64,000 nucleotides of DNA. Origin: Propionivibrio sp. (GTDB lineage Bacteria > Pseudomonadota > Gammaproteobacteria > Burkholderiales > Rhodocyclaceae). The stretch is from NCBI RefSeq assembly GCF_016790145.1, contig NZ_JAEUOI010000049.1, forward strand, positions 1 through 64,000, read 5' to 3'. The translations under genes were made by a program, and so were the position numbers. Every line of letters starts with the position of its first letter. Within the stretch, counting starts at the first letter, position 1. Below, piece after piece: positions 47,442 to 51,435 of the stretch. Under the pieces are notes generated by a model, which saw only the letters and a program-made list of their open reading frames with translations, was not told the origin of the DNA and made no database searches.

Positions 47442-48971
47442 ATGCTGAACAACGCCCCCACACCATCCCCCGACACCGACGCCCTGCGCAAAAGCTACGA
47501 CGAGTTGCCCTACGATAACCTGCCGCGCTACACCACCCACCCCGACTGCCTGGCGACCGCCGCGCGCCTGCGCGGTCTCGAGGTGCCGTCGGTGGCCACG
47601 GCGCGGGTGCTCGAACTGGGATGCTCGACAGGAGTCAACCTGATCGCCCTGGCCGTCGCCATCCCCGGCGGACGCTACACGGGCATCGACCTGTCCACCG
47701 CCCACATCGACTCGGCAGTGTCGCTCGCCAAAACCCTGGGACTCGAGCAGGTGAATTTCGCGGCGGCCGACCTGCGCTCGCTCGCCGGGACGCTGGGCGA
47801 GTTCGACTACATCGTCTGCCACGGCGTCTATTCGCACGTACCGGCCGACGTGCAGGAGGCCATCCTTTCAATCTGTGCCCACAGCCTGGCGCCCAATGGT
47901 GTCGCCTGCATAAGCTACAACACCTATCCCGGCTGGTACCTGCGCGGCATGATTCGCGACCTGTTGCGCTGGCACGTTCGCGACACGCCCGAACTGGCGC
48001 AGCAGGTCGCCCGGGCGCGGGAGTTCATGCAGGTGCTCGCACGCCAGGCCCAACCCCCCGGTGGCTGGTATGCCGGAGCGCTTGGCGACGAGGCACGCAT
48101 TCTGGCGGACTCGCTGGACAGCTATATCGCCCATGAGCACCTGGATCCGGTCAACGAGCCGCTCTATCTGATTGAGTTCGTCGCCCGGGCGCGGCAACAC
48201 GGCCTTGAGTACCTGGGCGAAGCGCTTCCTGAGCCCCAGCTCTGCGATCTGCCGGGCGATCTCGGAGCGGCGTTGGCAGGACTCGCCGACGACCCACTGG
48301 CACAGGGCCAGTACCTGGATTGCTTCCTAGGGCGCGCCTTTCACCGCACCTTACTTTGCCGTGCCGACGCTGCGCCGCGTGAGCGCACTCCGCTGGAAAC
48401 CGTTCAGTCTTTGCTGGCACGTGCGCGCGCCACGCCGGTTTCGGAGCAGCCGCGGGTAAGGGAAATCGTAGTGGAGAACTTTCGCACGGCAGACGGGTAC
48501 GCCGCCTCCAGCACCGATCCGCTGATCAAGGCCATGCTCGTTGCCCTGCGACGACGGGCACCGGGCATGCTGAGCTTTGCCGCGTTACAGAACGAAGTTC
48601 GGGAGATGCTTGCGGGCGCCTGGCCGGCGTGCTATCGCGAAGACGACCCGGTGCCGCTGGCGGAGGCGCTGCTCAGGCTCCATCGCGGCAGCCTGCTGAG
48701 CTTGCACACGCTGGACATCGCGTTTGCTACCGAGGCCGGCACGACGCCGCGTGCAAGCCCCCTCGCCCGCGAGCAGGCGCGAACAGGCGCGCGGGTGACC
48801 AGCCTGCGGCACGACACCATCGAACTTGACGCGACGCAGCGGGAGTTACTATGCCTGCTGGACGGCACACAGGACCGCCGTGAGCTGCTGGCGCGATGCC
48901 CGTGGCTGAGTGCGGAGTTGCTGGAAAAGACGCTTGGCCATATGGCCCGGCATGCCTTGCTGAAACAATGA
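47442..48971 (+). CDS. SAM methyltransferase with C-terminal methyltransferase regulatory domain
   Basis: 509 residues. N-terminal class I methyltransferase: SYDELPYDNLPRYTTHPD, SAM motif VLELGCSTGVNLIALAV at 56-72, FDYIVCHGVYSHVP and SYNTYPGWYLRGMIRDLLRW. The middle HEHLDPVNEPLYLIEFVARARQHGLEYLGE matches the MethyTransf_Reg (PF10119) type, followed by a winged-helix-like C-terminus (LLCLLDGTQDRRELL). Substrate unknown. Converges (42-base gap) on a Nif11-type peptide gene, which makes peptide modification a reasonable hypothesis; no other modification gene is in the immediate region. Confidence 0.85.
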   Translation: MLNNAPTPSPDTDALRKSYDELPYDNLPRYTTHPDCLATAARLRGLEVPSVATARVLELGCSTGVNLIALAVAIPGGRYTGIDLSTAHIDSAVSLAKTLGLEQVNFAAADLRSLAGTLGEFDYIVCHGVYSHVPADVQEAILSICAHSLAPNGVACISYNTYPGWYLRGMIRDLLRWHVRDTPELAQQVARAREFMQVLARQAQPPGGWYAGALGDEARILADSLDSYIAHEHLDPVNEPLYLIEFVARARQHGLEYLGEALPEPQLCDLPGDLGAALAGLADDPLAQGQYLDCFLGRAFHRTLLCRADAAPRERTPLETVQSLLARARATPVSEQPRVREIVVENFRTADGYAASSTDPLIKAMLVALRRRAPGMLSFAALQNEVREMLAGAWPACYREDDPVPLAEALLRLHRGSLLSLHTLDIAFATEAGTTPRASPLAREQARTGARVTSLRHDTIELDATQRELLCLLDGTQDRRELLARCPWLSAELLEKTLGHMARHALLKQ

Positions 48972-49013
48972 CCCGCGGTGCGAAGCGCCAGGGCGCGCCG
49001 GGAAACGACAGAT

Positions 49014-49298
49014 TCAGACGGAGCCATCGCCGAGTTTGTAGATCCCGTCGATGCTCATTTTGATGGGCGGTCCTTCGATAGAGACTTTACTCTGCCGGAG
49101 CAGGGTCGTCTGCAGCTTCGGGCTGCTCAGGTCAAAGCCCTGTATAAGGCCGCCTGCCACCTGGTCGAGAGATGCGTCGCTCAGTTCGTCCGAACCAAGG
49201 GCAATCCCGTAACGCCCGGCCAGCGCCACCAGTTCCTTGCGCAAACCTTCGTCTTCGCTTGCTTTCTTCAGAAAAGCCGAAATCGTATTCGTTTCCAT
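49014..49298 (-). CDS. Nif11-type leader peptide protein, candidate RiPP precursor
   Basis: 94 residues with an exceptionally good ribosome site (GGAGGTGA, 3 bases before ATG 49298). Residues 1-50 match the Nif11/NHLP leader pattern: ISAFLKKASEDEGLRKEL, GIALGSDELSDASLDQVAGG, ending in the Gly-Gly cleavage site at 49-50. The 44-residue tail after GG starts LIQGFDLSSPKL and ends YKLGDGSV; it has no cysteine but eight Ser/Thr residues. Such leaders guide enzymatic modification and export; here the only obvious enzyme is the convergent methyltransferase. Could also be a non-RiPP Nif11-fold protein. Its own promoter is described separately. Confidence 0.75.
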   Translation of the reverse strand: METNTISAFLKKASEDEGLRKELVALAGRYGIALGSDELSDASLDQVAGGLIQGFDLSSPKLQTTLLRQSKVSIEGPPIKMSIDGIYKLGDGSV

Positions 49299-49336
49299 CT
49301 GTCACCTCCTCGGTGTTCGGGTTAAACGGAAAGGCC

Positions 49337-49403
49337 ATGATAGGGCGCTGTGGGGACACGGACAAGCGAACTGTTACGCAGCAAAGCTGTGACCTGTGTC
49401 ACA
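49337..49403 (-). promoter_or_regulatory. Promoter of the Nif11-type gene with a consensus CRP-like site
   Basis: Minus strand: -35 TTGTCC (49360-49365), 17-base spacer, -10 TATCAT (49337-49342). Upstream, TGTGA-N6-TCACA (49388-49403) is a perfect CRP/FNR-family consensus half-site pair centred near -65 relative to the predicted start, compatible with class I activation. Together with the strong ribosome site this predicts regulated, high expression of the peptide gene. The CRP match is seen directly; the regulator is inferred. Confidence 0.6.
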
Positions 49404-49467: not shown

Positions 49468-49857
49468 TCATAACGGCCATGGGTGTGTTCTTTGCGAGTC
49501 TTCTTCGGCCAATTCAGCGCATTCGGCATCGCTGAAAATCCGCGAGCGGGTGTGAAAGGCCTTGCCCTCCGGGCCTTCCAGCGAGAAGGTGCCGCCGTGG
49601 CCGTCGATCACGTCGATGATCAACTGCGTGTGTTTCCAGTACTCGTATTGCGACTTTCCGATGTAGAAGGGGCAGCCGCCGATTTCGCCGAGATATACGT
49701 CACCGGCGCCGATGGTGATTTCGCCAGGCAGGTAGCAATTGGCCGCGCTGTTGTCGCAGCAGCCGCCGGATTGGTGGAACATCAGTTCGCCATGCTTCCT
49801 TTTCAGAAGTTCGATCAAGTCCAGGGCGGCTTGGGTGGCAACGACTTTTTCTACCAT
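49468..49857 (-). CDS. DUF779 protein associated with aldehyde dehydrogenase
   Basis: 129 residues. Conserved FHQSGGCCDNSAANCYLPGE motif with three cysteines, DVYLGEIGGCPFYIGKSQYEYWKHTQLIIDV; this is the DUF779 signature seen beside acetaldehyde/aldehyde dehydrogenase genes. Possibly a metal- or redox-active partner of the dehydrogenase. Follows the dehydrogenase gene by 57 bases on the same strand. Confidence 0.88.
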   Translation of the reverse strand: MVEKVVATQAALDLIELLKRKHGELMFHQSGGCCDNSAANCYLPGEITIGAGDVYLGEIGGCPFYIGKSQYEYWKHTQLIIDVIDGHGGTFSLEGPEGKAFHTRSRIFSDAECAELAEEDSQRTHPWPL

Positions 49858-49914
49858 GCTCGTCTCCGAAAATGAGGGGCGCTTGGCCGCCCCCGGGCCT
49901 TGTTTGTATTTAAA

Positions 49915-51435
49915 TCAGAAGAAACCCAGCTTCTTCGGGCTGTAGCTGACGAGCAGGTTTTTGGTCTGCTGATAGTGGTCGAGCATCACCTTGTGCGTTT
50001 CACGACCGATTCCGGATTCCTTGTAGCCGCCGAAGGTGGCGTGGGCCGGGTAGGCGTGGTAGCAGTTGGTCCATACGCGACCGGCCTTGATGGCGCGGCC
50101 CATGCGGTAGGCGGTATTGCCGTCGCGCGACCAGACGCCGGCACCGAGGCCGTAGAGCGTGTCGTTGGCAATCTCCAGGGCTTCGGCTTCGGTCTTGAAG
50201 GTGGTCACGGCGAGCACCGGCCCGAAGATCTCTTCCTGGAAAATGCGCATCTTGTTGTGGCCCTTGAACAGCGTCGGCTGGACGTAATATCCGTCGGCCA
50301 GATCGCCTTCGAGTTTGGCGCGGGCGCCACCGATCAGCAACTCGGCACCTTCCTGCTGGCCGAGATCGAGATAGGTCAGGATCTTGGTCAACTGTTCCTG
50401 CGAGGCCTGGGCACCCATCATCGTGTCGCTGTCGAGCGGGTTGCCCATCTTGATCGACGCAACGCGTTCGAGGACACGCGCCATGAACTTGTCATAGATC
50501 GATTCGTGGATCAGCGCCCGCGACGGGCAGGTGCACACTTCGCCCTGGTTGAAGGCGAACAGCACCAGACCTTCGATGGCCTTGTCGAAGAAGTCATCGT
50601 CGGCGTCGGCGATATCGGCGAAGAATATGTTGGGCGACTTGCCACCGAGTTCCAGCGTCGCCGGAATCAGGTTGTTGGCGGCGGCCTGCGCGATCAGGCG
50701 GCCGGTGGTGGTCGATCCGGTGAAGGCGATCTTGGCGATGCGGCGGCTGGTGGCCAGCGGCATGCCGGCTTCGCGGCCGTAGCCGTTGACGATGTTGAGC
50801 ACACCCGGCGGCAGCAGGTCGTTGATCAGTTCGGCGACGATCAGGATGCTGATCGGCGTCGATTCGGCCGGCTTCAGCACCACGCAGTTGCCGGCGGCAA
50901 TCGCCGGCGCCAGTTTCCACGCCGCCATCAGGATCGGGAAGTTCCACGGAATGATCTGGCCGACGACGCCGAGCGGTTCATGAAAGTGGTAGGCGACGGT
51001 GTTCTCGTCGATATCGCTGAGCGCACCTTCCTGCGCCCGCAGGCAGCCGGCGAAGTAGCGGAAGTGGTCGATGGTCAGTGGAATGTCGGCGTTCAGCGTT
51101 TCGCGGATCGGCTTGCCGTTGTCGACGGTTTCGGCGTAGGCCAGCAATTCCAGATTCTGTTCCAGGCGATCGGCGATCCTGAGCAGGACGTTGGCACGTT
51201 CAGCCGGCGGCGTACGTCCCCACGCGTTGGCGGCGGCATGGGCCGCATCCAGCGCCAGCTCGATGTCTTCGGCGCCCGAGCGGGCCACTTTCGTATACAC
51301 CTTGCCGGAGACCGGTGTGATGACATCGAAGTATTGACCCTTGACTGGCGGCACCCACTTGCCGCCGATGAAGTTGTCGTATTTGGCCTTGAACTGAAGC
51401 TTGGCGCCGGGTTGACCGGGGAATGCGTAGATCAT
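49915..51435 (-). CDS. NAD-dependent aldehyde dehydrogenase (AldB/ExaC type)
   Basis: 506 residues. ALDH fold: cofactor region [22 protein letters not shown], catalytic Cys in [18 protein letters not shown], catalytic Glu in [13 protein letters not shown]. The C-terminal [23 protein letters not shown] and oligomer-forming YSPKKLGFF tail fit AldB/ExaC-type acetaldehyde dehydrogenases. Oxidises acetaldehyde to acetate or related aldehydes. First gene of the pair; DUF779 follows. Function is high confidence, exact substrate is not. Confidence 0.93.

Follow-up and report, generated by a model that had tools for sequence, protein, structure and literature searches.

A predicted leader-core peptide gene facing a PKMT-type methyltransferase in Propionivibrio, and its possible part in peptide lysine methylation

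In the 64,000-nucleotide stretch of Propionivibrio sp. DNA analysed here (positions 1 to 64,000 of contig NZ_JAEUOI010000049.1, assembly GCF_016790145.1; hereafter the window), a small open reading frame (ORF) faces a methyltransferase gene, and the locus raises the question of whether the enzyme modifies the encoded peptide. The contig measures 68,287 bp and belongs to a 4.05-Mb genome of 99.8% completeness; the two genes are convergent, with their stop codons 42 bp apart. An earlier inspection of the letters alone (the sequence-only reading) had described a 94-residue precursor with a double-glycine (GG) leader adjoining a PF10119 methyltransferase, and ORF, homologue and domain evidence confirmed this observation. 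The explanation we prefer, to which we assign a probability of roughly 0.6, is a peptide-tailoring system in which an enzyme of the rickettsial lysine methyltransferase (PKMT) type likely methylates lysines in the core of a leader-core precursor.

The 94-codon ORF looks like a genuine gene for such a precursor, as predicted from its own features and those of its homologues. A strong Shine-Dalgarno site precedes its start (GAGGAGGTGACAG-ATG), and the leader, residues 1–50, terminates in VAGG. The remaining 44 residues include four Lys, eight Ser/Thr and no Cys, which agrees with the Cys-free, Ser/Thr-containing core described earlier. Because 33 other proteins matched it in a phmmer search at E ≤ 1e-3 (34 sequences including the query), the ORF is more than a chance reading frame, and a profile search brought the family to 44 proteins including the query. 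The 34-sequence alignment gave a mean column entropy of 0.45 bits for the leader vs 1.77 bits for the core, with values of 2.5 bits in the middle of the core (residues 67–83) and 1.08 bits in its tail (residues 84–94). Lysine was present in 42 of the 44 family cores, DGSV formed the core end in 32 of the 44 members, and Cys occurred in seven cores. In one Propionivibrio metagenome-assembled genome, two paralogues have locus tags that directly follow one another (IPJ48_21100, IPJ48_21105), and three family members lie on contigs of equal length (12,510 bp); a leader-profile search found no second leader copy in the window. As a separate observation, P0030, P0031 and P0032 join the same leader to very short cores of 13–16 residues, two of which end in PGG, unlike the KLGDGSV type.

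The methyltransferase combines a class I S-adenosylmethionine (SAM, AdoMet) domain, PF10119 and PF21782 (PKMT_2nd; 49.0 bits, cut-off 27.8) in one chain, and it matched the rickettsial lysine methyltransferases PKMT1 and PKMT2 over its full length, the winged helix at the C-terminus among the matched parts. After these, Rv2067c was the nearest in fold, and it too is titled a lysine methyltransferase. Asp83 and His127 are retained at the positions that align with PKMT1 Asp102 and His146 (alignment read with a one-residue chain offset), both of which contact AdoMet (PMC11784438, in part). The sequence-only reading had spoken of an unrecognised peptide modification; this we correct, since the enzyme is specifically PKMT-like and the predicted chemistry is lysine N-methylation. 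A role in anti-phage defence was considered and rejected: the PADLOC mad2 match (66 bits) spans residues 53–174 only, and the precursor had no match.

The association of the two genes was assessed with the enzyme relatives listed, the best 120 of 2,061, each with its longest contig, taking equal length of the longest contigs as a proxy for the same contig; the pairing count omits enzyme P0103, which had no contig data, leaving 107 distant enzymes. Among these listed relatives, seven of the 12 other enzymes with at least 57% identity shared an equal-length contig with a precursor, vs none of the 107 with at most 46% identity (Fisher p = 1.4e-8, a value that ignores relatedness). The peptide-methyltransferase pair is real and appears co-conserved, and the co-occurrence of leader and PF10119 enzyme elsewhere, raised by the sequence-only reading, apparently holds. 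Several counts weigh against this interpretation: five of the 12 close enzymes have no precursor partner, and a listed enzyme is present on only eight (one being the window's contig) of the 16 precursor contigs that reach 3 kb or more and on none of the 22 shorter ones.

The close enzymes form one clade (12/12, support 1.0), fragment P0046 having been omitted to leave 12 members. In class I methyltransferases, the acceptor site is bordered by the loop that follows strand 4. The clade has His132 in place of a Trp found in 108 of the 108 other listed relatives, and in 109 further loci Trp occupied this position in all 64 where the motif was found (it was not found in 45). Leu111 of the clade, vs Ile in 96 of the 108 other listed relatives, aligns with PKMT1 Ile130, whose change to Ala alters the Km for OmpB (PMC11784438, in part). 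The C-terminal tail from Asp474 measures 36 residues in the clade vs 60 in most other listed relatives. His132, Leu111 and Arg112 would also fit an enzyme that tailors the peptide at an acceptor other than lysine, namely a freed N-terminus, His, Asn or a carboxylate, with enzymes of the exporter contig described below possibly acting first on the core. We consider this unlikely, as lysine methyltransferases take the first three places when whole folds are compared, Asp83 and His127 are kept at the AdoMet-contacting positions, and Lys is so widespread in the cores (42/44).

Among 28 genomes of the genus, the precursor and the close PKMT were each found in one genome only, the source genome, and one other contained a partial enzyme relative of 28% identity. 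The precursor had one true match across 249 family genomes, where another, spurious match (L012, in another family genome, antisense to a regulator-like ORF) was discounted, and one match in 300 genomes of the order. No precursor relative was confirmed among 597 pattern matches in a scan of genome contigs, a set that possibly does not include the source genome itself, or among 59 pattern matches in viral contigs. PKMT relatives were present in 28 of 395 family genomes, the source included, with the others at no more than 38% identity; of the 30 other family PKMT matches, 29 were checked by means of 48 stretches that overlap in part (20 extended by wider flanks), and none of these held a leader. 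Distant PKMT loci were represented by the best 80 (33–43% identity) of 548 relatives in GTDB genomes, many of them cut by contig ends. A loose pattern for GG leaders gave 62 ORFs at these loci, none leader-like by eye, and one leader-profile match (L055, a long segment, E 0.25) was taken as noise. A general PKMT-Nif11 pairing was rejected, leaders having been found neither at the best 80 GTDB loci nor at the 29 family loci; the pairing thus seems limited to one clade and not to extend to PKMTs at large.

This distribution of enzyme relatives without leaders and the convergent orientation of the two genes would suit an enzyme that methylates a cell-surface protein, the peptide gene being independent and bacteriocin-like. 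Such is the function of the family, in which rickettsial PKMTs methylate OmpB and KmtA methylates AtaA, both surface proteins (PMC11784438, in part). The co-location confined to the close clade, as judged by contigs of equal length, and the clade-specific changes near the active site make this explanation improbable. OmpB is an autotransporter, and neither YadA-anchor nor autotransporter domains, the domain types of known surface substrates, were found in the source genome, which also speaks against a surface-protein target.

The leader had also been described as Nif11-type, and this was upheld in part. What stands is the GG leader with its hypervariable core and the frequency of sub-threshold matches: of the 44 family members, 25 had a PF07862 match (E ≤ 0.05) and 33 a TIGR03798 match (E ≤ 0.01). 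Formal membership does not stand: the query scored 15.9 bits against PF07862 (curated cut-off 23.8) and 20.0 bits against TIGR03798 (curated cut-off 32.3), and none of the 10 close relatives scanned singly exceeded either cut-off. The family profile reached two distant relatives, P0164 and P0165, both of which pass PF07862. The locus shares with Nif11-derived peptides (N11P) a double-glycine leader, a hypervariable core and paralogous sets, and the genome encodes an NHLM C39-peptidase/ATP-binding cassette (ABC) exporter on another contig. Judged by its sequence, the leader is Nif11-like, and we do not file it as a Nif11 family member. P0164, a metagenome protein, joins a Nif11 leader (37.1 bits) to a Tox-PAAR-like domain (30.7 bits, cut-off 31). 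At a further locus (L002 58–2870, contig C22), a Nif11-like ORF of 108 residues lies downstream of an arginase-family gene and faces a pair of genes for FeeM N-acyl amino acid synthases; it resembles arginase/acyltransferase loci for ribosomally synthesized and post-translationally modified peptides (RiPPs) such as selidamides, and the arginase could be housekeeping.

In the structure model, the C-terminal domain of the methyltransferase weakly resembles RiPP recognition elements (RREs). The first four VIA-align entries for this domain were PKMTs, and 13 of the next 22 carry a recognition element; over the whole list of 46, entries of this sort number no more than 14. Recognition-element matches by Foldseek were not significant, and neither was the best non-PKMT sequence match of the domain, PqqD (E 0.12). 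A wider and tentative proposal, to which we give less credence than to lysine methylation of this peptide as such, is that Nif11-like precursors whose core lysines are N-methylated by PKMTs with built-in leader recognition form a new RiPP class and that the C-terminal domain of rickettsial-type PKMTs is of the RRE type. Since the domain would then be RRE-type, rickettsial-type surface-protein methyltransferases and peptide maturases would share an origin. Quite different would be an unmodified GG-leader bacteriocin exported by NHLM, with the methyltransferase as an immunity, regulatory or chance neighbour. We regard this as very improbable in view of the co-conservation with the enzyme, the RRE-like domain on that enzyme and the variable core joined to an invariant leader, a pattern that families of tailored precursors also show, although the core is without Cys and no tailoring gene other than the methyltransferase was recognised beside the precursor among the flanking ORFs scanned.

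Under the tailoring explanation the peptide also needs an exporter, which the sequence-only reading had placed outside the window, and a C39 exporter/peptidase was indeed found elsewhere in the same genome. The only Peptidase_C39 match in the genome (E ≤ 0.001) lies on another contig (C129), and is thus absent from the window; it is part of NHLM ABC1 (1011 bits, cut-off 853), which adjoins NHLM ABC2 (872 bits, cut-off 709), HlyD and outer-membrane efflux (OEP) proteins. Within the genus the source genome alone passed the NHLM ABC1 cut-off (1/28), the others having lower-scoring ABC proteins. The exporter contig carries three GG-leader precursor-like ORFs, one of which reads ELSDDALDQVSGG vs ELSDASLDQVAGG in the window precursor, and the motif ELSDxxLDQVxGG is common to the window leader and one exporter-contig precursor. 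A Nif11 precursor on that contig exceeds both cut-offs and is directly followed, with an overlap of 4 bases, by a gene for a PrmC-like methyltransferase that has a sub-threshold C-terminal PqqD match. The part of the contig that includes these two genes (L009 11523–16636) also encodes an MvdD-like ATP-grasp alongside a maturation protein of the TIGR04500 family and another GG precursor, a graspetide-like set. Export of the window precursor in trans by the NHLM system is likely, since the single NHLM exporter lies beside similar GG-leader precursors and the conservation of the related NHLP leaders has been argued to reflect handling by a shared exporter (PMC2887384, in part).

Taken step by step, the precursor is first produced; sequence comparison shows that the 50 residues of its leader are conserved and that its core varies. 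The C-terminal winged-helix domain of the methyltransferase, with its RRE-resembling fold, would hold the leader, and the SAM domain, in which this clade alone has a changed acceptor loop, would place methyl groups on lysines of the core in the manner of PKMT relatives. The C39-peptidase NHLM exporter would then cleave behind the GG and carry the core out of the cell. For systems of this type, the common guess is a secreted peptide that acts on nearby bacteria or between them. The coordinates of the features are collected in Table 1.

Table 1. Features of the precursor-methyltransferase locus, in window coordinates
Feature	Position	Strand	Basis
PKMT-type class I methyltransferase gene, 509 aa	47442-48971	plus	PF10119, PF21782, PKMT fold
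His132 codon, clade-specific	47835-47837	plus	Trp in 108/108 other listed relatives
PF10119 region, residues 226-307 of methyltransferase	48117-48362	plus	61.3 bits, cut-off 25.5
C-terminal winged-helix domain, residues 425-509	48714-48968	plus	structure model, pLDDT 95.5
Precursor peptide gene, 94 aa	49014-49298	minus	ORF, homologues and alignment
Core, residues 51-94, tail KLGDGSV	49017-49148	minus	variable part of alignment
Leader, residues 1-50, ending ELSDASLDQVAGG	49149-49298	minus	low column entropy
Shine-Dalgarno site AGGAGGTGA before precursor ATG	49302-49310	minus	sequence

Two single matches were set aside: a terminator-like one near the stop codons, where shuffled sequence leads one to expect 1.9, and a promoter-like one upstream of the precursor (0.5 expected). 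Next to the pair, a DUF779 protein gene adjoins that of the acetaldehyde dehydrogenase ExaC (49468–51435). DUF779 adjoins exaC in two of 27 sister genomes, there without the precursor-enzyme pair, and because gene order beyond DUF779/exaC differs in the sister genomes, an insertion boundary is not readable.

If the preferred explanation is true, the locus would represent a novel type of peptide tailoring in bacteria, with a bacterial enzyme family dedicated to lysine methylation that could be found by genome mining and would enlarge the set of tools for editing peptides. If PKMTs do have a fold like that of recognition elements, this would likewise offer a testable idea of substrate choice; a clear consensus around methylated AtaA lysines was not found (PMC11784438, in part). 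In the passages considered here of PMC11285071, a review of RiPP methyltransferases, lysine side-chain methylation is limited to one family of fungal peptides and to a secondary action on nisin; these passages name neither a PKMT-type enzyme nor Nif11, a word with 0 occurrences in that text. A pairing of PKMT and Nif11-like precursor was not found among the titles and abstract openings listed from the open-access literature.

Among known systems, the epichloecyclins, fungal RiPPs with dimethyl-lysine (GigC), and the action of CypM on nisin Lys12 share with the present proposal the lysine N-methylation of a ribosomal peptide; they differ in that the former belong to a fungal system and the latter comes from an N-terminal methyltransferase acting outside its main role (PMC11285071, in part). 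With the RREs of PqqD, LynD/TruD, TbiB1 and PbtF the likeness is not significant by sequence or Foldseek. N11P systems (TIGR03798/PF07862) with the NHLM cassette (TIGR03796/03797) have in common with our locus a GG leader of ~50 residues, a hypervariable core, paralogues and an NHLM exporter in the genome (PMC2887384, in part), whereas here the leader lies under both curated cut-offs and the precursor stands beside a PKMT, with no recognised lanthionine or azole enzyme. PKMT1/PKMT2 (5dnk, 5doo) and KmtA are alike in full-length fold with a C-terminal winged helix, and the present enzymes differ from them as a clade of 57–92% identity that is linked to small peptide precursors and is set apart by His for Trp and by the shortened tail from Asp474.
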